Shown here one piece after another: positions 1 to 5,880 of a stretch of DNA of 5,880 bases. The notes below the pieces were generated by a model. It was not told where the DNA came from. It saw only the letters and a list, made by a program, of their open reading frames with translations, and did no database searches. The position numbers were made by a program, and so were the translations under genes. Each line of letters opens with the position of its first letter. The stretch's first letter is position 1. The DNA is from Bacteroidales bacterium (GTDB lineage: Bacteria; Bacteroidota; Bacteroidia; Bacteroidales; F082): positions 1-5,880 of the forward strand of contig JAILDR010000178.1 of assembly GCA_024689285.1 (NCBI GenBank), in the 5' to 3' direction.

Positions 1-67
1 TCCGCAATCTTGGTGAAGCTTTAGCCTGCTCGGTCAATTGATCCAATATAGCTTGTGTGATAACCAT
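1..67 (-). CDS. WbuC-family cupin, N-terminal fragment (second paralog, cut by window edge)
   Basis: Reading leftward from the ATG at 67-65 gives 22 residues, beginning MVITQAILDQL and ending QAKASPRLR, before the window ends. They align without gaps to the N-terminus of the complete WbuC cupin at 603-196: 14 of 22 residues are identical, including MVI, the LD pair, QAK and SPRLR. This is the conserved WbuC N-terminal region that precedes the cupin barrel. The barrel and its metal ligands lie outside the window, so activity cannot be judged. The gene follows the first wbuC on the same strand with a gap of about 128 bp, so the two look like a tandem paralog pair. No Shine-Dalgarno sequence is visible. 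The family occurs in O-antigen and capsule clusters and its reaction is not established. The call rests on the paralog match over a short stretch. Confidence 0.75.
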   Translation of the reverse strand, partial: MVITQAILDQLTEQAKASPRLR

Positions 68-80
68 CCTGGTAATAAAA

Positions 81-133
81 TGAGCATCTAAGCAACTAAG
101 CTGTAAGCAAAAATAAGCCGTAAGCATCTAAGC
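81..133. repeat. Degenerate GCTTA-type short repeat in the wbuC leader (copy A)
   Basis: On the plus strand this stretch is built from variations on TAAGCATC, CTAAGCA and TAAGCCG units, 7-8 bp each; on the minus strand they read GCTTAGAT or GCTTACG. It fills most of the space upstream of the partial wbuC start. The related copy at 603-640 sits at the same place upstream of the other wbuC gene. No function is assigned. Confidence 0.7.
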
Positions 134-134
134 C

Positions 135-168
135 ATCACCACCTCGGCCAAAACAAATAACTGCAAAA
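135..168. repeat. 34-bp conserved spacer block, copy A
   Basis: This block contains CTCGGCCAAAACAAATAACT and differs from 641-674 at one position in 34. Both copies lie upstream of a wbuC start, next to GCTTA-type repeats. A weaker match follows on the left-to-right reading (181-200 against 686-705, 17 of 20 identical). Here that second match overlaps the end of the complete wbuC gene. The block may be a duplicated leader or a regulatory element. Confidence 0.8.
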
Positions 169-195
169 ACCGCCAAACGCCTTTCAAAATCGCTT

Positions 196-603
196 TCATT
201 TTTTCACCGGGATTTCAAGTATGCCCTCAATTTCATGCGGCACGTATGGCCCTTCCTTGCATTCAAAAATAACGGAGCCTGGCTCTAAGGCTTCTACAGT
301 GTGCCACACGTTCTTTTCCACGTTCACGCCATAACGGCCTTCTGTTGGGGAAATGACGTGGTCTTCAATGATAGAACCATCGTCGTTGAAGGTTGTGATA
401 CGGATTTTGCCACGTAATACCACAAACGATTCCTCTTTCTTAGGATGCCTGTGAATGGGAATATCTGCACCAGGTTCAACAGCATTCAGGAAACGGTGGC
501 ACTTGTCCTCCAAGCTTTGGTGAATGTTCAAATTCATCCGCAATCGGGGCGAGTCCTTAGCTTGGGCTGATAAACCGTCTAAAACCTTATCGTCGATAAC
601 CAT
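196..603 (-). CDS. wbuC: WbuC-family cupin-fold metalloprotein
   Basis: This is a 135-residue cytoplasmic single-domain cupin. The cupin motif 1 is clear: G45, five residues, H51-R-H53, four residues, E58, six residues, G65, so H51, H53 and E58 are the expected metal ligands. The motif 2 histidine is H101 in NVWHTVEAL. The N-terminal SPRLRMNLN segment is typical of WbuC. I start at the ATG at 603-601. An upstream in-frame ATG at 624 would add seven residues (MLRCLRL) encoded entirely by the GCTTA repeat, and the MVI start matches the neighbouring paralog exactly. The stop is TGA at 198-196. WbuC proteins are found in O-antigen and capsule loci, but their reaction is not established. The gene lies between the mutarotase (gap of about 122 bp) and a second wbuC. 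Family assignment is strong; function is open. Confidence 0.9.
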   Translation of the reverse strand: MVIDDKVLDGLSAQAKDSPRLRMNLNIHQSLEDKCHRFLNAVEPGADIPIHRHPKKEESFVVLRGKIRITTFNDDGSIIEDHVISPTEGRYGVNVEKNVWHTVEALEPGSVIFECKEGPYVPHEIEGILEIPVKK

Positions 604-640
604 AAGCCGTAAGCATCTAAGCATCTAAGCACCTAAGCAA
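603..640. repeat. Degenerate GCTTA-type short repeat at the wbuC start (copy B)
   Basis: The stretch contains repeated TAAGCATC and CTAAGCA units on the plus strand, related to 81-133. The segment ATAAGCCGTAAGCATCTAAG is shared exactly by both copies (113-132 and 602-621). Here the repeat abuts, and slightly overlaps, the wbuC ATG, so any native leader or ribosome binding site in the last 35 bp has been replaced or masked by repeat. Confidence 0.75.
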
Positions 641-674
641 ATCACCATCTCGGCCAAAACAAATAACTGCAAAA
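641..674. repeat. 34-bp conserved spacer block, copy B
   Basis: This is the second copy of the block at 135-168 (33 of 34 identical). Read on the minus strand it contains CAGTTATTTG, with a TTTTTGAAAG further upstream. In both copies a TTTG lies 22-23 bp before GTTATTTG, which loosely resembles the Bacteroides promoter arrangement (TTTG, then TAnnTTTG). The match to consensus is poor, so a promoter role is only a possibility. Confidence 0.75.
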
Positions 675-725
675 CTGACACACATCTTTCAAAAACGCTG
701 TCAATTCCATTCTAAAACACCGTGG

Positions 726-1049
726 CTAAAATATTTTTTCCATCATCTGCCACTTCTCGTCGCTCCTGGCATCGGCTTTGCAGCCTTGGAATTGGCTTAC
801 GTAAGCCTCCCATTCGGCTTGACGAGGAAGAGTGGCGAGACGAGCCATGTCGCGTTGCCAGTCGAAGTCATCCACGGTGTCGCAAATCATAAAGAGACTT
901 CTCCCCTTGCGGTAGATTTGCATATCGAGGATGCCTACTTGCCGTTGGCCATCGATAATCTCTGGCCATACATGGGCGTGAGCTTCCACATATTTCGCAA
1001 TCATTTCCTCGTCATCAACCAAGGTCAACGTCTGACAATATCTTTTCAT
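726..1049 (-). CDS. RhaM-like L-rhamnose/L-fucose mutarotase family protein
   Basis: This 107-residue protein belongs to the L-rhamnose mutarotase (RhaM, formerly DUF718) family, whose members interconvert the alpha and beta anomers of a 6-deoxy sugar in the cytoplasm. The motif Y20-x3-H24-x3-W28-P-E30 matches the Y-x3-H...WPEL motif of E. coli RhaM, which carries the catalytic Tyr and His. W64, W80 and the C-terminal SDEKWQ segment also fit, and the length is close to the usual 104. I start at the ATG at 1049; a GTG at 1079 would add ten residues but falls in the CACAGAT repeat. It lies 53 bp downstream of the kinase/nucleotidylyltransferase fusion. Anomeric kinases need one anomer, so it probably supplies that enzyme (inference). 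L-fucose is as likely a substrate as L-rhamnose, given fcl nearby. Confidence 0.85.
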   Translation of the reverse strand: MKRYCQTLTLVDDEEMIAKYVEAHAHVWPEIIDGQRQVGILDMQIYRKGRSLFMICDTVDDFDWQRDMARLATLPRQAEWEAYVSQFQGCKADARSDEKWQMMEKIF

Positions 1050-1078
1050 AATCTCACACTGAATAATGTTTTTTGTCA

Positions 1079-1105
1079 CACAGATAGCACAGATATCACA
1101 GATTA
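1079..1105. repeat. Three CACAGAT copies at exact 9-bp period
   Basis: CACAGAT starts at 1079, 1088 and 1097, an exact 9-bp period (CACAGATAG, CACAGATAT, CACAGATTA). The left end lies in the mutarotase leader. The right end contains the TAA stop of the fusion gene (1105-1103). It is followed directly by the GC palindrome at 1106-1118. It is not part of any recognised RNA or operator family. Confidence 0.75.
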
Positions 1106-2287
1106 TCGCCTGCGGCGAATTGTCAATCTAATAGCTTCTTTATGTTCATTAGCAAATGTTTCAGTGTCTTCTACCACACAGGCGAGATAGCCACCACCTC
1201 CTGCTCCGGGCATCTTATATGCCATTACGAGTTTTTCGTATTTTTCGATGTAGGATGGAACCGTGCCTTGTATCATAGCAGGAAACATTGCCACTTGCGC
1301 CTCAAATGAGGCTTTATAGGCTTTCGCAAATGCTTCCAAGTTCAGGTTTATTATCGCTTCCCAGCAGTCGTCGGCAGCTTTTGCCAATGCCTGAACTTTT
1401 GGTAAAGTGATGTCTTTTCCTTCCACTACGGAGCAGCCTGGCTTACGGGGTTCCATGGGAATCATCACCAAGTGCGACTCTAACCAGCTCAACACGGCCT
1501 CGTCGTTGCAGGTCTCAATCTTCTCCGGCCAAAAGCGATTGTTGTAATAGTGGCGGCAGAGGCCGGGGATGCAGATGCCTATCGAGTCTTGGGCACCACT
1601 GATGATACCGTCTGAACGCTCTGGGTTGTTCTCATAGCAGAATACAAGGCGGGCCAAGGTTTCGGGTTCCATGTCGGGCAACTCCAACGGCCAAATCTTC
1701 TTGATCATGTTCCGTGTGGAAGTACTCAATCCGCAACGTTCTCGCACCTCAAATGTAGGCTCCAAACTGATGGTGATAGCCCAACCTGGGGCATAACACG
1801 AAACATACGGTTGGTCAATCCAAGTCCCTGCCAAGTCCAATCGTGTGGGAATCCGGCAGAGTTGCTCCTTGATGGCAGTGCTTGAATGGGCTTCCAAACC
1901 CTTGTGCGGGTCGCGTTTCAGCACCACATATTCCATGTCTCGCTCCTCACAGAACTTCCGCTTCTCTTCTGAGGCTCCGTCTTCGTTCACCACCAAAATA
2001 TCAGGCTTCAGAAAATCGACTGTCGGCACAAAGTCCATGATGCCGCTGCCAGCGTTGATGTAAGCATCCTTCACATAGCGAATGGCCTTCACCATGAAGA
2101 GGCGGTCTTGCTCGTTCCACAGCGTCTTATGCCCTTTGTAGTGCAAGATAGTCTCATCCGAGCCTATACCCACATACAGGTCGCCATACTCAGCCGCCTG
2201 ACGGAAGAACTCCACATGTCCCGAATGGAGCAAATCATAACAACCACTAACGAAAACCTTTGGTTTCTTTGAAAGTTCAAAGTTCAT
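1103..2287 (-). CDS. Fused TagD-like nucleotidylyltransferase and GHMP-family sugar kinase
   Basis: The 394-residue protein has two domains. Residues 9-143 are an HxGH nucleotidylyltransferase of the TagD/RfaE-domain-II type: VFVSGCYDLLHSGH (H21, H24), DRLFMVKAIRYV at 61-72, R125, and SSTAIKEQL at 135-143 in place of the usual ISTT motif. Residues 145-394 are GHMP-kinase-like: RIPTRLDLAGTWID at 145-158, GLSTSTRN at 186-193 as a likely ATP loop, GAQDSIG at 231-237 as in fucokinase and HddA, and GAGGGGYLA at 361-369. About 30 residues separate the first two kinase motifs, clearly fewer than I expect in HddA or fucokinase, so the kinase is compact. It probably phosphorylates a free sugar and activates it with a nucleotide, a counterpart of Fkp or HldE; substrate and nucleotide are unknown. 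Residues 1-6 (MNFELS) and the RRRR tail are encoded by flanking repeats. Confidence is high for domains, low for substrate. Confidence 0.85.
   Translation of the reverse strand: MNFELSKKPKVFVSGCYDLLHSGHVEFFRQAAEYGDLYVGIGSDETILHYKGHKTLWNEQDRLFMVKAIRYVKDAYINAGSGIMDFVPTVDFLKPDILVVNEDGASEEKRKFCEERDMEYVVLKRDPHKGLEAHSSTAIKEQLCRIPTRLDLAGTWIDQPYVSCYAPGWAITISLEPTFEVRERCGLSTSTRNMIKKIWPLELPDMEPETLARLVFCYENNPERSDGIISGAQDSIGICIPGLCRHYYNNRFWPEKIETCNDEAVLSWLESHLVMIPMEPRKPGCSVVEGKDITLPKVQALAKAADDCWEAIINLNLEAFAKAYKASFEAQVAMFPAMIQGTVPSYIEKYEKLVMAYKMPGAGGGGYLACVVEDTETFANEHKEAIRLTIRRRR
1106..1118. repeat. GC-rich palindrome TCGCCTGCGGCGA inside a gene end
   Basis: This 13-bp inverted repeat has 5-bp arms (TCGCC and GGCGA) around TGC. 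Its 11-bp core occurs again in the opposite orientation at 3771-3781. Here it encodes the terminal RRRR of the fusion protein, immediately before the stop. There is no T-run on either strand next to it, so it is not a standard intrinsic terminator. Confidence 0.7.
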
Positions 2288-2288
2288 A

Positions 2289-2310
2289 GTTTATAGTTTA
2301 AAGTCAGTTT
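2289..2310. repeat. 20-22 bp element, left arm of pair flanking the S23 gene
   Basis: The first 20 bp read GTTTATAGTTTAAAGTCAGT. The reverse complement of 2715-2736 matches the full 22 bp with one difference, so the two form inverted arms around the S23 gene. A direct near-copy with one difference in 20 lies at 3711-3730. The element abuts the ATG of the fusion gene at 2287. Confidence 0.8.
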
Positions 2311-2324
2311 AATCAGTTGAAAGT

Positions 2325-2693
2325 TTATTCAGTCGATGGTTTATAAGAGTTTTGGAGTCCTGAAAGAAGACGAGCATCCTCTTTAATAAGTTCATCCATA
2401 CTCATTCGATCTTCAGTAGTAATGTAGCCAAGTTCCTCCGCAATTTCAAACTGCGAGGAAACCTCCATAAGAGAGCCAAAGGCTACTTCTATGAAATGTG
2501 ACTTGTCTTTTACTGAATAACGATTTACCCCCTCAGCTATATTCGAGGTAATAGAAACAGAAGCTCGTCTCAGTTGGTCGCACATGGCATAACGCTCCTC
2601 AACTGGGAATTTTTTCAGTAGTTTATACGTCCTTTTAACTACTTCCTTTGCTTTCTGATAGGCTATCAACTTTCTATACCCAAATACTTCCAT
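2325..2693 (-). CDS. Four-helix-bundle protein, 23S rRNA-intervening-sequence (S23) family
   Basis: The 122-residue all-helical protein carries the family hallmark QLRRASVSITSNIAEG at 40-55, an N-terminal YRKLIAYQKAKEVV helix (the family usually has WQKA), and the FIEVAFGSLMEVSSQFEIA helix at 67-85. No signal peptide or membrane segment is seen. The family was first seen as an ORF inside intervening sequences of 23S rRNA genes, but stand-alone copies are common in Bacteroidetes and their function is unknown. It interrupts an otherwise sugar-metabolic run, 59 bp after fcl and 37 bp before the fusion gene, and is bracketed by a 22-bp inverted repeat. Its TAA stop (2327-2325) lies in repeat sequence. 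It may have been inserted as a cassette rather than serving the pathway. The start at 2693 gives the usual length. Confidence 0.9.
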   Translation of the reverse strand: MEVFGYRKLIAYQKAKEVVKRTYKLLKKFPVEERYAMCDQLRRASVSITSNIAEGVNRYSVKDKSHFIEVAFGSLMEVSSQFEIAEELGYITTEDRMSMDELIKEDARLLSGLQNSYKPSTE

Positions 2694-2700
2694 ACTTTTT

Positions 2701-2750
2701 CAACTATAAACTTAAAACTGACTTTCAACTATAAACATTCAACTTTCAAC
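2701..2750. repeat. Tandem CTTTCAACTATAAAC-type repeats with right arm of the inverted pair
   Basis: CAACTATAAAC occurs at 2701-2711 and again at 2726-2736, with related TTCAAC units up to 2750. The segment 2715-2736 is the right inverted arm matching 2289-2310 (21 of 22). It occupies the fcl-S23 gap, and the array reaches the fcl stop codon at 2755-2753. Confidence 0.75.
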
Positions 2751-2752
2751 TA

Positions 2753-3694
2753 TCAGCGCTCCGCCCTGAAAGGATTTTGTAAAAAATCCTGATAGGCGAG
2801 CGCAATACCGTCTTCCAACTCGGTCTTGTACGTCCAACCCAGTTTGGCGGCTTTGCTCACATCCAAAAGCTTCCTTGGGGTGCCGTTCGGGCGGGTGGTG
2901 TCCCACTCGATGCGGCCTTTGTAGCCTACCACTTTGGCCACCAGCTCGGTCAGGGACTTAATGGTCAGTTCCTTGCCAGTGCCGGCATTGACGGTTTCGT
3001 TTCCACTGTAGTTGTTCATCAGGAATACGCAGAGGTTGGCCAGGTCATCCACATAAAGAAACTCGCGCAAAGGGCTGCCGTCGCCCCAGCAGGTGACGCT
3101 CTCCAAACCGGCCTCTTTCGCCTCATGGAAACGACGTATCAATGCGGGCAACACATGGCTGTGCTCGGGATGATAGTTGTCGTTGGGGCCATAGAGATTC
3201 GTCGGCATTACAGAGATATAGTCGGTGCCGTACTGGCGGTTGAGGTACTCGCAGTATTTCAGGCCACTGATTTTGGCTAATGCGTAGGCCTCATTGGTCT
3301 TCTCCAGCTCGCTGGTCAGCAGGCAGCTTTCGGGCATAGGCTGAGGAGCCATACGGGGATAGATGCAGCTGCTGCCGAGGAATTCCAACTTCTTGCAGCC
3401 ATTTTTCCAAGCAGCATGGATGACGTTCATCTCCAGAATCATGTTGTCGTACATGAAGTCGGCCAGGGCCGATTGGTTGGCCACGATGCCACCCACCTTG
3501 GCTGCCGCCAGAAACACATATTCAGGCTTCTCCTCGGCAAAGAACTTCTCCACCGCCTCCTGACGGGTCAAATCCAGTTCCTTGTGGGTGCGAGTAATAA
3601 TATTGTTATAGCCTTGACGCTGTAATTCTCTCACGATAGCTGAGCCAACCATACCACGGTGGCCCGCCACATAAATCTTCGAATCCTTATTCAT
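2753..3694 (-). CDS. fcl: GDP-L-fucose synthase (GDP-4-keto-6-deoxymannose 3,5-epimerase/4-reductase)
   Basis: The 313-residue extended-SDR protein uses NADPH to epimerise and reduce GDP-4-keto-6-deoxy-D-mannose to GDP-L-fucose in the cytoplasm. The Rossmann motif G11-HRG14-MVG17 is present. The active-site set known from E. coli Fcl (S107, C109, Y136, K140, H179) is all present one position later: S108, C110, Y137, K141 and H180 in HPEHSHVLPALIRR. NLYGPNDNYHP and REFLYVDDLA are further family signatures. Length is typical, and the ATG at 3694 places the glycine motif correctly. It lies 147 bp downstream of manC on the same strand. Gmd, which makes its substrate, is not in the window and is often adjacent in other genomes. 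The TGA stop is at the edge of a repeat array. The assignment is very secure. Confidence 0.97.
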   Translation of the reverse strand: MNKDSKIYVAGHRGMVGSAIVRELQRQGYNNIITRTHKELDLTRQEAVEKFFAEEKPEYVFLAAAKVGGIVANQSALADFMYDNMILEMNVIHAAWKNGCKKLEFLGSSCIYPRMAPQPMPESCLLTSELEKTNEAYALAKISGLKYCEYLNRQYGTDYISVMPTNLYGPNDNYHPEHSHVLPALIRRFHEAKEAGLESVTCWGDGSPLREFLYVDDLANLCVFLMNNYSGNETVNAGTGKELTIKSLTELVAKVVGYKGRIEWDTTRPNGTPRKLLDVSKAAKLGWTYKTELEDGIALAYQDFLQNPFRAER

Positions 3695-3710
3695 TTTTTT
3701 AAAGTTTAAT

Positions 3711-3730
3711 GTTTAGAGTTTAAAGTCAGT
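3711..3730. repeat. 20-bp element, left arm of pair in the fcl-manC gap
   Basis: GTTTAGAGTTTAAAGTCAGT differs from the element at 2289-2308 at one position. The reverse complement of 3799-3818 resembles it with three differences, so the two form an imperfect inverted pair, with a continuous 12-pair run (one G-U) if transcribed. The pair encloses 68 bp that contain the GC palindrome. Confidence 0.75.
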
Positions 3731-3769
3731 GGTGAGTGTATAGTTTTTAGTTTTAAGTTACTTGAAACT

Positions 3770-3782
3770 CCGCCGCAGGCGG
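3770..3782. repeat. GC-rich palindrome CCGCCGCAGGCGG between inverted arms
   Basis: This has 5-bp arms (CCGCC and GGCGG) around GCA. Its core CGCCGCAGGCG is the reverse complement of the core at 1107-1117. It stands out as GC-rich in an AT-rich gap. No T-run follows on either strand, so a terminator is not supported. Confidence 0.7.
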
Positions 3783-3798
3783 CACTATCAACTTGTGA

Positions 3799-3840
3799 AC
3801 TGACTCTAAACTATCAACTATCAACTCTAAACTATCAATT
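3799..3840. repeat. 20-bp element (right arm) plus AACTATCAACTCTAAACT-type repeats before the manC stop
   Basis: ACTGACTCTAAACTATCAAC at 3799-3818 is the inverted partner of 3711-3730. Its reverse complement differs from the 2289-2308 copy at two positions in 20. AAACTATCAA recurs at 3808-3817 and 3829-3838, ending next to the manC TAA at 3844-3842. Together with 3711-3782 this accounts for almost all of the 147-bp fcl-manC gap. Confidence 0.7.
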
Positions 3841-3841
3841 A

Positions 3842-4885
3842 TTATTCTGCTGAAAACTCTCTTATTCTTTGTTCTTCGCTGCGTTTGCACACGAGTATTT
3901 GTCCGTTCTTTTCGCTCACGATGTAGCCGTCCAGGCCTTGCAGCACCACCTTCTTGGCATCTTCGGCATGGACTACGCAATTCGAGCATTCGTATAGCTT
4001 AATATTGCCCACGGCACCATTGCCGTTGGTATCTTTTGTTAGCTTGTCGTGAAGTGAGGCCCAGTTGCCGAGGTCGCTCCAACCAAAGTCAGCAGGATGG
4101 GTATATACCTTGCCATCTGCGGCTGCGGGTTCCATCACCGCAAAGTCGATGGAGATTTTTTCGCAATTGGGGAATATGCCAGCCACATCACCAGTTGCGG
4201 CAATCTTGTCCATATCAGCTGCAATGTTGGGCTTGTATTTCAGAATGCTTTCAGTGATGGTGTCGATGTTCCATACAAAGATACCGGCATTCCAAAGGTA
4301 GTTGCCTGCTTTTAAGTATTTCTCAGCGGTTTCAAGGTTGGGTTTTTCCTTGAAAGATGCGACGGCCTGGATTTCGGGGGATTCCGCATCAGGTGCGGAA
4401 TGAGGCATGGCCTCAACGTAGCCGTAGCCCATCTCAGGTCTGGAAGGCTTAATACCGATGGTCACAATGGCGTTATTACCCTCGGTAAAAGACAAAGCGT
4501 TCTTAATCACTCTGCGGAACTCTTCGGGGTTCATCACCACGGCATCGGCAGGAGTGACTACCACGTTGGCTTGCGGGTCTTCTTTCTTAATGCTCCAGCA
4601 AGCCCAAGCGATGCAGGGGGCAGTATTTCGTGCGGCAGGCTCGGCCAAGATATGCGAAGCGGGCATATCGGGAATCTGTTGCTTTACGATGTCAACGTAG
4701 GCGGCATTGGTCACCACCCAGAAGTTGCTCATCGGGGCAATGCCTTTGAAGCGATCTACGGTCAATTGAATCAGCGTGCGACCGCAACCCAAGATGTCAA
4801 TAAACTGTTTCGGATATTCAGGGGTGCTAAGGGGCCAGAAACGGCTTCCTACGCCACCAGCCATGATAACTACATGATTGTTCAT
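3842..4885 (-). CDS. manC: Mannose-1-phosphate guanylyltransferase (GDP-mannose pyrophosphorylase)
   Basis: The 347-residue enzyme converts mannose 1-phosphate and GTP to GDP-mannose, the precursor of GDP-L-fucose. The nucleotide-binding signature MAGGVGSRFWPLSTPEYPKQF begins at residue 8. EPAARNTAPCIAWA at 82-95, GYGYVE at 153-158, FKEKP at 178-182, NAGIFVW at 199-205 and FGWSDLGNW at 267-275 follow in the family order. It ends at about 347 residues, so it is the single-function form without the C-terminal phosphomannose isomerase cupin found in longer AlgA/ManC types. In the usual PADH motif it reads TPADAVV at 111-117, with Ala for His; the Asp is kept. It lies 141 bp downstream of the epimerase gene and upstream of fcl. 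The ATG at 4885 is the first residue of the expected fold. The assignment is secure. Confidence 0.96.
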   Translation of the reverse strand: MNNHVVIMAGGVGSRFWPLSTPEYPKQFIDILGCGRTLIQLTVDRFKGIAPMSNFWVVTNAAYVDIVKQQIPDMPASHILAEPAARNTAPCIAWACWSIKKEDPQANVVVTPADAVVMNPEEFRRVIKNALSFTEGNNAIVTIGIKPSRPEMGYGYVEAMPHSAPDAESPEIQAVASFKEKPNLETAEKYLKAGNYLWNAGIFVWNIDTITESILKYKPNIAADMDKIAATGDVAGIFPNCEKISIDFAVMEPAAADGKVYTHPADFGWSDLGNWASLHDKLTKDTNGNGAVGNIKLYECSNCVVHAEDAKKVVLQGLDGYIVSEKNGQILVCKRSEEQRIREFSAE

Positions 4886-4934
4886 ATTATATAAGTTTCA
4901 AGTTTCAGGATTATTCGCTTCATTTATTATATTT

Positions 4935-4955
4935 CAAAGGTGCTCATGACCTTTG
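4935..4955. other. Perfect 7-bp hairpin (CAAAGGT/ACCTTTG) in the manC leader
   Basis: CAAAGGT, a 7-nt loop and ACCTTTG form a perfect inverted repeat 50 bp before the manC ATG. On the minus strand the right arm is followed by AAATATAATAAATG, not a T-run, so a terminator is unlikely. Its TTTG lies 21 bp before TAATCCTG, a poor match to the Bacteroides -33/-7 pair. It may be a leader structure or an operator; support is weak. Confidence 0.4.
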
Positions 4956-5040
4956 GTTCAAGTTTTAAGTTTAACGGTTCAAGGTTCAAGAGTTTAAGAG
5001 TTTAAGCAGTTTAAGGGTTTAAGAGTTCAAAAGTTCAAGG
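4956..5040. repeat. Tandem TTTAAG/TTCAAG repeat array between the epimerase and manC genes
   Basis: The array is a near-continuous run of GTTTAAGA, GTTCAAG and similar 7-10 bp units (for example AGAGTTTAAGAGTTTAAG near 4990-5005). It extends into the 3' end of the epimerase gene, encoding the last residues LNF and the TGA stop. A matching CTTAAACC fragment directly precedes the epimerase ATG at 5873-5880. No promoter or RNA was recognised in it. Confidence 0.8.
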
Positions 5041-5872
5041 TTATAGAATAACGGAACTCAAAGCTCTTGCCAGATTCAAGGCTGTGGATGCAATCGCGCT
5101 CGGAAATATCGCCTTTGAATCCGGCATTATCGGCAATGCCACACCAAGGTTCGATGCAGACAAACGGACAGCCTGGCTTGTTGGGCGCCCACAATCCAAA
5201 GGCATCGGCTTGCTGACAGCTGACTGTCAACACTCTCTTGCCTTGCTTGTCGAATAATGCCACTTTGGCCACCTGCTGTGCCTCAAGCAATATGGCATCG
5301 TCGGCAAATGTAGTGTCGGTCAAAGCAAGTATGCCTTTATTATTCAATAGCGTCTTGGGTTGACTATAATGGGCTCTCAAACCGTTTACAAGGGTACTAA
5401 ACAACATTGGTGAAACAACGTTGTCATTAGCATCATAGCACATGATATAGCCATGAATTGCGTCTTTAGCATCATATTCTGGCAACAGGAAAGCGGGATG
5501 TGCACCTATTTGGAAGTACATGGTATCATCGCCACGGTTCGTTACCTGCCAGTTGCAGGTCAGCGTGTTGCCGTCAACCAGATACTTCACAGCCAACTCG
5601 TAAGCGTAAGGATAGTCGTCTCGGCTATTTTCCGTCAACACATACTTGCCATCCTGCTCCACAAACTCAGTATCACGAGCAAAACCATGCTGCTTCATGG
5701 TGTATTCATGGCCATTAACACGCAAATTGTCGTCAGCAAGCTTTCCAACAATCGGGAACAATATCGGTGCGCGACGGCCCCAAAACTTTGGATCGCCTTG
5801 CCATAGGTACTCGCGACCGTTGGCGGTAATGTTTTGTAGTTCTGCTCCTTTATGTGAAACAGTGATATGCAT
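5027..5872 (-). CDS. Aldose 1-epimerase family protein, LacX-like
   Basis: This 281-residue galactose-mutarotase-fold protein has the LacX-type pattern: YLWQGDPKFWGRRAPILFPIVGKL at 22-45, QHGFAR at 61-66 (H62), GAHPAF at 123-128 (H125) and EPWCG at 241-245 (E241). The family catalyses or is thought to catalyse anomer interconversion of hexoses in the cytoplasm, using His and Glu as acid and base; the substrate of LacX-like members is usually unknown. The start MHITVSHKGAEL lacks about eight residues seen before this strand in typical members. A TAA lies in frame two codons upstream (5878-5876), so no longer start is available. The last residues and stop come from the TTTAAG/TTCAAG array. It is the first gene of the run in this window; a link to GDP-fucose is not required by the sequence. 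Confidence 0.9.
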   Translation of the reverse strand: MHITVSHKGAELQNITANGREYLWQGDPKFWGRRAPILFPIVGKLADDNLRVNGHEYTMKQHGFARDTEFVEQDGKYVLTENSRDDYPYAYELAVKYLVDGNTLTCNWQVTNRGDDTMYFQIGAHPAFLLPEYDAKDAIHGYIMCYDANDNVVSPMLFSTLVNGLRAHYSQPKTLLNNKGILALTDTTFADDAILLEAQQVAKVALFDKQGKRVLTVSCQQADAFGLWAPNKPGCPFVCIEPWCGIADNAGFKGDISERDCIHSLESGKSFEFRYSITLNF

Positions 5873-5880
5873 GGTTTAAG

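Follow-up and report, generated by a model that had tools for sequence, protein, structure and literature searches.

A compact nucleotidylyltransferase/GHMP kinase fusion from Bacteroidales as a candidate L-fucose salvage enzyme

Introduction

Gut Bacteroidota are known to salvage fucose with the bifunctional enzyme Fkp, and in HldE, which also pairs a sugar kinase with a nucleotidylyltransferase, the kinase is of the PfkB type and comes first. Here, we describe a fusion protein with features of both, encoded in a 5,880-nucleotide stretch of a Bacteroidales genome (assembly GCA_024689285.1, contig JAILDR010000178.1, positions 1 to 5,880; the whole stretch is called the window below). The fusion gene (1103-2287, minus strand) encodes 394 amino acids comprising an HxGH nucleotidylyltransferase and a compact GHMP-type kinase. 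Like Fkp of Bacteroides fragilis (L-fucokinase/GDP-fucose pyrophosphorylase), the protein has its nucleotidylyltransferase first and its GHMP kinase second, the two kinase halves are related, and fucose-contacting and catalytic residues are common to both; the overall conversion is likely the same. Unlike Fkp, which has 949 residues, it has 86 residues fewer between kinase motifs 1 and 2, and its nucleotidylyltransferase belongs to the HxGH family PF01467 rather than being a pyrophosphorylase with a β-helix. With HldE (RfaE; heptose kinase/heptose-1-phosphate adenylyltransferase) it shares the combination of a sugar kinase with an HxGH domain of the RfaE domain II type, but its kinase is GHMP-type and stands second. 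Searches of the open-license literature, with preprints and most subscription journals lying outside them, turned up no account of such a fusion, and in PMC12732313 the terms nucleotidylyltransferase, cytidyl, truncat, Prevotella, mutarotase and domain architecture do not occur.

Results and Discussion

A proposed bifunctional route from L-fucose to a nucleotide sugar

We propose a bifunctional role in sugar salvage for the fusion, which we consider likely, although well short of certain. Free L-fucose would be imported by the transporter FucP and its anomers exchanged by a mutarotase. The GHMP-type half would then phosphorylate L-fucose at C1, and the HxGH half would join the resulting sugar-1-phosphate to a nucleotide to yield NDP-L-fucose. 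The product would most likely be GDP-L-fucose, as made by the neighboring Gmd/Fcl pathway. Within this proposal L-fucose is well supported as the putative sugar and bifunctionality fairly supported, while GDP is assigned as the nucleotide by context only, from the neighboring genes.

By profile and fold comparison, the fusion combines a nucleotidylyltransferase of the RfaE/TagD type with a divergent GHMP kinase. The open reading frame, its HSGH motif at residues 21 to 24 (2216-2227) and the RhaM-type mutarotase gene trailing it all lie where the original prediction had placed them. Residues 13 to 141 match CTP_transf_like PF01467 (E = 6.7e-15). The nucleotidylyltransferase half (residues 10 to 143; 1859-2260) has the TagD fold, with TagD, Fom1 and HldC among the matching solved folds, and the kinase half (residues 145 to 394; 1106-1855) aligns with GHMP kinases, both as foreseen from the sequence; the heptokinase WcbL was its top fold match. 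None of the listed Protein Data Bank (PDB) chains had a best-scoring stretch that covered both halves. The window protein carries no Pfam GHMP_kinases_N/C match over threshold. The three GHMP superfamily motifs (substrate motif, P-loop and C-terminal glycine motif) are present in order, and PF08544 is matched at E ≤ 0.01 by 41 of the 101 members of an alignment (A1) made up of the window protein, 89 relatives from protein searches and 11 close loci.

These relatives came from three protein searches, with the window protein and with homologs from loci L088 (37% identical) and L084 (45% identical), of which the best 120 each were kept, giving 360. Thousands more matches at E = 0.001 or better lie beyond them and may include other HxGH proteins. 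A second alignment (A2) comprised the window protein and 73 of the 360. The best 360 are 368 to 418 amino acids long, contain PF01467 in every case and carry a variant P-loop, RxGxxxSxR, throughout. Those that bear a name in their source are called "cytidyltransferase-like", "adenylyltransferase/cytidyltransferase family protein" and, in two cases, "FAD synthase". Close loci are the best 80 from a scan of species genomes and, going by their titles, derive mostly from Bacteroidales of the guts of ruminants and other herbivores. Among the 101 A1 sequences, H21, G23 and H24 are kept in at least 97%. In favor of the proposed reaction, every one of the 101 also matches the sugar-1-phosphate model TIGR02199 (E ≤ 0.001).

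The fusion is not Fkp, because it misses the curated cut-off of the Fkp profile and its first half does not have the fold of the pyrophosphorylase, but its mode of action is probably similar. The match to NF009948 reaches 38.2 bits against a cut-off of 721 and spans only residues 301 to 377, which resemble the end of the Fkp kinase, and the nucleotidylyltransferase half, being of PF01467 and TagD fold, has none of the left-handed β-helix of the N-terminal Fkp enzyme. Nor is it HldE: the match to NF008454 is confined to the HxGH part (residues 11 to 72), and a PfkB kinase domain is absent. The original prediction of a non-homologous counterpart of Fkp in a sugar salvage module is supported as to the module, holds as to the nucleotidylyltransferase half, which is unrelated to that of Fkp, and fails as to full non-homology, since the kinase half is akin to the Fkp kinase by profile and fold.

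A conserved sugar site and a missing adenine segment

According to Lin et al. (PMC11982464), fucose is contacted in Fkp by R592, W599, D601, T602, Q761 and D762, S719 binds the metal as a Mg ligand, the variants E751A and D762A are inactive, and a modeled adenine is surrounded by D644, M645, P666, I669 and L722. All 17 published residues that were checked carry the same letters in the Fkp of genome G239. Kinase motif 1 of the fusion (RLDLAGTWIDQP, residues 149 to 160; 1808-1843) contains R149, W156 and D158, which correspond to the published R592, W599 and D601. The P-loop, motif 2 (RCGLSTSTR, residues 184 to 192; 1712-1738), supplies S190 for S719, and GAQDSIG (residues 231 to 237; 1577-1597) supplies Q233 and D234 for Q761 and the general base D762. 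Each of these six residues is conserved in at least 97% of the A1 members. Glu219 in the motif ENNP (residues 219 to 222; 1622-1633), of which E219, N220 and P222 are invariant in A1, is probably the equivalent of E751, as matched by eye across about four residues of insertion. Unlike the remaining fucose contacts, the T602 position is occupied by an invariant Gln. Motif 3 (GAGGGGY, residues 361 to 367; 1187-1207) completes the set. Motifs 1 to 3 and the overall kinase fold are shared with the GHMP heptose-7-phosphate kinases HddA and WcbL; the HddA of L101, our sole HddA comparator, differs in having Gly in place of the motif 1 Trp and in lacking a fused nucleotidylyltransferase. The pairing of RxGxxxSxR with GSGLGTSS in motif 2 was taken from the HddA alignment, as the Fkp alignment did not pair this motif.

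The short spacing between motifs 1 and 2, already remarked from the sequence of the window, proved general: the distance from the motif 1 Arg to the motif 2 Ser is 41 residues in all 360 best relatives (by a pattern that allows AG or SG, the latter in 5), compared to 127 in Fkp, 105 in the HddA and 100 in one galactokinase. Fkp comparator L121 is a 525-residue fragment that covers the kinase. By the published model, the stretch absent from the fusion is that holding D644, M645, P666 and I669, four of the five adenine contacts, which in Fkp are themselves modeled. The position of the fifth, L722, is N, R or K in 326 of the 355 relatives read. Three additional Arg residues (R184, R192 and R281) are invariant in A1. 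By alignment and models, the site thus looks intact where it would hold the sugar and transfer the phosphate, whereas the base-binding end looks lost. A kinase fold lacking an ATP site, which would count against the original prediction, is half of what is seen: the P-loop Ser, the catalytic Asp and the sugar site are kept, and the segment with four adenine contacts is gone. ATP as the phosphate donor is doubtful.

The mutarotase

The neighboring mutarotase gene (726-1049, encoding 107 amino acids from the likely ATG; longest open reading frame, 726-1079) belongs to the RhaM family PF05336 (100 bits; Pfam cut-off, 23.4), and its Y/H pair, read from the sequence beforehand, is present in the alignment. 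It resembles the L-fucose mutarotase 7byu in family, Y/H pair and length, although the sequence match is weak (E = 6e-4, 23.1 bits). This was its best PDB match, and 7byu and 7byw, both L-fucose mutarotases, were the two entries below E = 1e-3. The L-rhamnose mutarotase 2qlx follows close behind (21.1 bits, E = 0.0025), and the L-rhamnose mutarotase model TIGR02625 is matched at 13.5 bits against a cut-off of 99.6. In genomes G413, G376, G388 and G411, the mutarotase match contains one internal stop codon each.

Gene neighborhood and co-occurrence

Neighbors were counted within 6 kb of the fusion for six markers at chosen BLAST bit thresholds (FucP, 120; mutarotase, 40; GMD, 250; Fcl, 220; GDP-mannose 3,5-epimerase [GME], 250; L-fucose isomerase [FucI], 400). 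Clustering of neighbors at the best 80 close loci gave FucP (50), mutarotase (41), GMD (36) and Fcl (33) as the commonest after the fusion itself. By thresholds, the counts were 51, 47, 34 and 34, with any marker at 67. Among the 57 close loci flanked on each side by 6 kb or more, FucP was found at 38, mutarotase at 40, GMD at 29, Fcl at 28 and any marker at 49; none of the six lay within 6 kb at the other 8. The curated FucP cut-off (280.4 bits) was applied to six loci. The representative of L037 reached 588 bits, and the FucP-like genes of L103, L116, L117, L118 and L119 also exceeded it, four of them narrowly. As a separate observation, galactokinase-like, nucleotidyltransferase-like and GMD-like epimerase genes (labeled by eye) are repeatedly grouped close to the fusion, at L041, L051 and L075.

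The same neighbors accompany distant relatives. Nineteen loci with 36 to 57% identity to the window protein were gathered from four places in the phylum sample outside the anchor genome, five further genomes of the order of G177, five further class-sample genomes, and five of the six less similar matches in the family described below (G300, G317, G323, G350 and G377; G354 was left out). Every one had at least one marker: mutarotase at 16, FucP at 13 (the one at L136 being a doubtful, 26% identical transporter), GMD and Fcl at 5 each, GME at 3 and FucI at 2; L133 had the mutarotase alone. At L119 and L120, the fusion shares an operon-like row with genes for a DeoR-like regulator (labeled by eye), an FGGY kinase, a class II aldolase and an L-fucose isomerase (1066 and 1056 bits, respectively; cut-off, 850). 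The FGGY kinase and aldolase of this row reached no fucose-specific cut-off. GH29 α-L-fucosidase genes are found no farther than 6 kb from the fusion at L119, L128, L129, L131, L132 and L136; all eight candidates, picked by eye, match PF01120. The presence of FucP, the mutarotase and GMD/Fcl, and in other lineages of L-fucose isomerase and GH29, argues strongly for a salvage module. Its location next to de novo GDP-fucose genes likewise held, with fcl in the window and GMD and Fcl frequent near the fusion elsewhere.

Co-occurrence was examined in 149 genomes of the GTDB family of the L001 genome, that genome included. The fusion was present in 25 (E ≤ 1e-68); a 26th genome, G358, gave a weak match to a stand-alone kinase and was excluded. 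FucP over cut-off occurred in 24 genomes, namely, 22 of the 25 that carry the fusion and 2 of the 124 that lack it, and the mutarotase in 27 (23 of 25 versus 4 of 124), with Fisher values of about 1e-20 for both that ignore genome kinship. The mutarotase link, seen beforehand in a single genome, is not confined to it. Fusion genomes without a match for FucP (G300, G330 and G429) or the mutarotase (G330 and G366) may be incomplete. L-fucose isomerase over cut-off was found in four genomes, 2 of 25 with and 2 of 124 without the fusion, an association that was not significant among the 149 (Fisher, 0.13). Both fusion-free FucP genomes carry the isomerase, so that all 24 FucP genomes have either the fusion or the isomerase. 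Fkp over cut-off was found in none of the 149, although the control, Bacteroides ihuae, was detected.

In a class sample of 267 genomes, the fusion occurred in 6 (one being the always-drawn anchor genome), Fkp in 5 and both in none. With only about 0.1 joint genomes expected by chance, mutual exclusion is unproven in these 267. As the fusion is about as frequent as Fkp and no genome has both, an annotation that looks for Fkp only would leave roughly half of the candidate salvagers there unnoticed. Counting the anchor in each case, the fusion was found in 2 of 119 genomes of the class around G036 (E = 1e-40), 7 of 164 of the order of G177 and 4 of 296 of a phylum sample, in which a fifth match was an Fkp.

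A subfamily next to GDP-mannose 3,5-epimerase

In one subfamily, GME adjoins the fusion at all three loci seen (L105:6832-7833, L116:3863-4867 and L117:9386-10405), and a LacI-like gene (by eye) also stands beside it. The L105 epimerase matches PDB 2c59 at E = 4e-95, and those of L116 and L117 are 81% identical to it. L105 also has GH95, GH88 and GH28 genes. A GME-like gene at L104, 42.8% identical, fell below threshold and was excluded from the count. Fkp itself accepts L-galactose, with about 100-fold lower affinity, which makes it plausible that the GME-linked subfamily may use L-galactose instead of L-fucose. The subfamily would then suggest a route from L-galactose to GDP-mannose, of which no description was found in the open-license literature, preprints being outside that search.

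Alternative explanations

An alternative is that the module works as proposed but with a nucleotide other than GTP, the HxGH half using CTP or ATP to make CDP- or ADP-L-fucose, a nucleotide sugar kept apart from the de novo GDP-fucose pool. Each of the 101 A1 sequences matches HxGH models of the ADP and CTP types (TIGR02199 and TIGR01518), and TagD, Fom1 and HldC, which are among the solved folds matched by this half, point the same way. Set against this are GMD and Fcl in the neighborhood of about half of the fully flanked close loci, the GME of the subfamily above, whose substrate is a GDP-sugar, and the absence of the term CDP-fucose from the open-license literature searched, preprints again lying outside it. 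We regard another nucleotide as possible but less likely. A substrate other than L-fucose, for which the names RhaM and RfaE suggest L-rhamnose or a heptose, is very unlikely. The RhaM Pfam family of the mutarotase, the WcbL fold match, the FGGY kinase of L119, which scores best as a rhamnulokinase (470 bits; cut-off, 528), and the aldolase of L119, which passes no fuculose-aldolase cut-off, would fit such a substrate. This reading is lowered by the context of FucP over its curated cut-off, FucI and GH29, to which GMD and Fcl can be added; L-fucose mutarotases also lead the PDB matches of the mutarotase, and a Trp occupies the fucose-stacking position.

Two further alternatives concern the kinase half, and both appear improbable. 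It could be inactive, binding fucose or fucose-1-phosphate only, while a separate kinase, perhaps an HddA-like protein that stands alone, supplies the nucleotidylyltransferase. The adenine segment is absent in all 360 best relatives, and 75 of the 149 genomes of the family contain stand-alone reading frames, mostly of about 345 amino acids, that strongly match the kinase portion of the Fkp profile. These kinases are found in just 8 of 25 genomes with the fusion compared to 67 of 124 without, however, and A1 shows no variation in the catalytic Asp, the Mg-binding Ser or a P-loop Gly, which is unexpected for a dead domain. Equally, we speculate that the kinase half might depart from the usual use of ATP and take its phosphate from released pyrophosphate or another small donor. 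The pyrophosphate of the fused nucleotidylyltransferase half would then phosphorylate fucose, one NTP paying for NDP-fucose, and the loss of the adenine segment would have been accompanied by a gain of the invariant R184, R192 and R281 at and beyond the P-loop. If so, this would be a GHMP-fold kinase that does not depend on a nucleotide base. A sugar site kept without the adenine-pocket segment is the surprising part of the bifunctional salvage enzyme that we favor, and it raises a directly testable question about the phosphate donor. As an enzyme of 394 amino acids, the fusion would also be a compact tool for producing activated fucose.

Other genes and repeats in the window

The window holds seven genes, all on the minus strand. 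Upstream of the fusion lie a galM-like gene (5027-5872), a mannose-1-phosphate guanylyltransferase-like (manC-like) gene (3842-4885) that matches PF00483 and scores 248 bits with TIGR01479, under the cut-off of 373, and the de novo pathway gene fcl for GDP-L-fucose synthase (2753-3694; NF047922, 481 bits, just under the curated cut-off of 500). Between fcl and the fusion is a gene of the 23S rRNA IVP-type four-helix-bundle kind (2325-2693). At 18 of the best 80 close loci, a similar gene occurs less than 6 kb away from the fusion, in varying positions. The intergenic gaps at 4976-5046, 2276-2308 and 3698-3730 contain AT-rich repeats with a period of about 8 bases (GTTTAAGA-like) and a 33-base repeat. 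Downstream of the mutarotase is a WbuC cupin gene (196-624), of which the start and leader are duplicated by pieces of the left edge (window positions 1-201 and 505-706). This suggests a second cupin copy at that edge, and L001 likewise has two WbuC-like genes.
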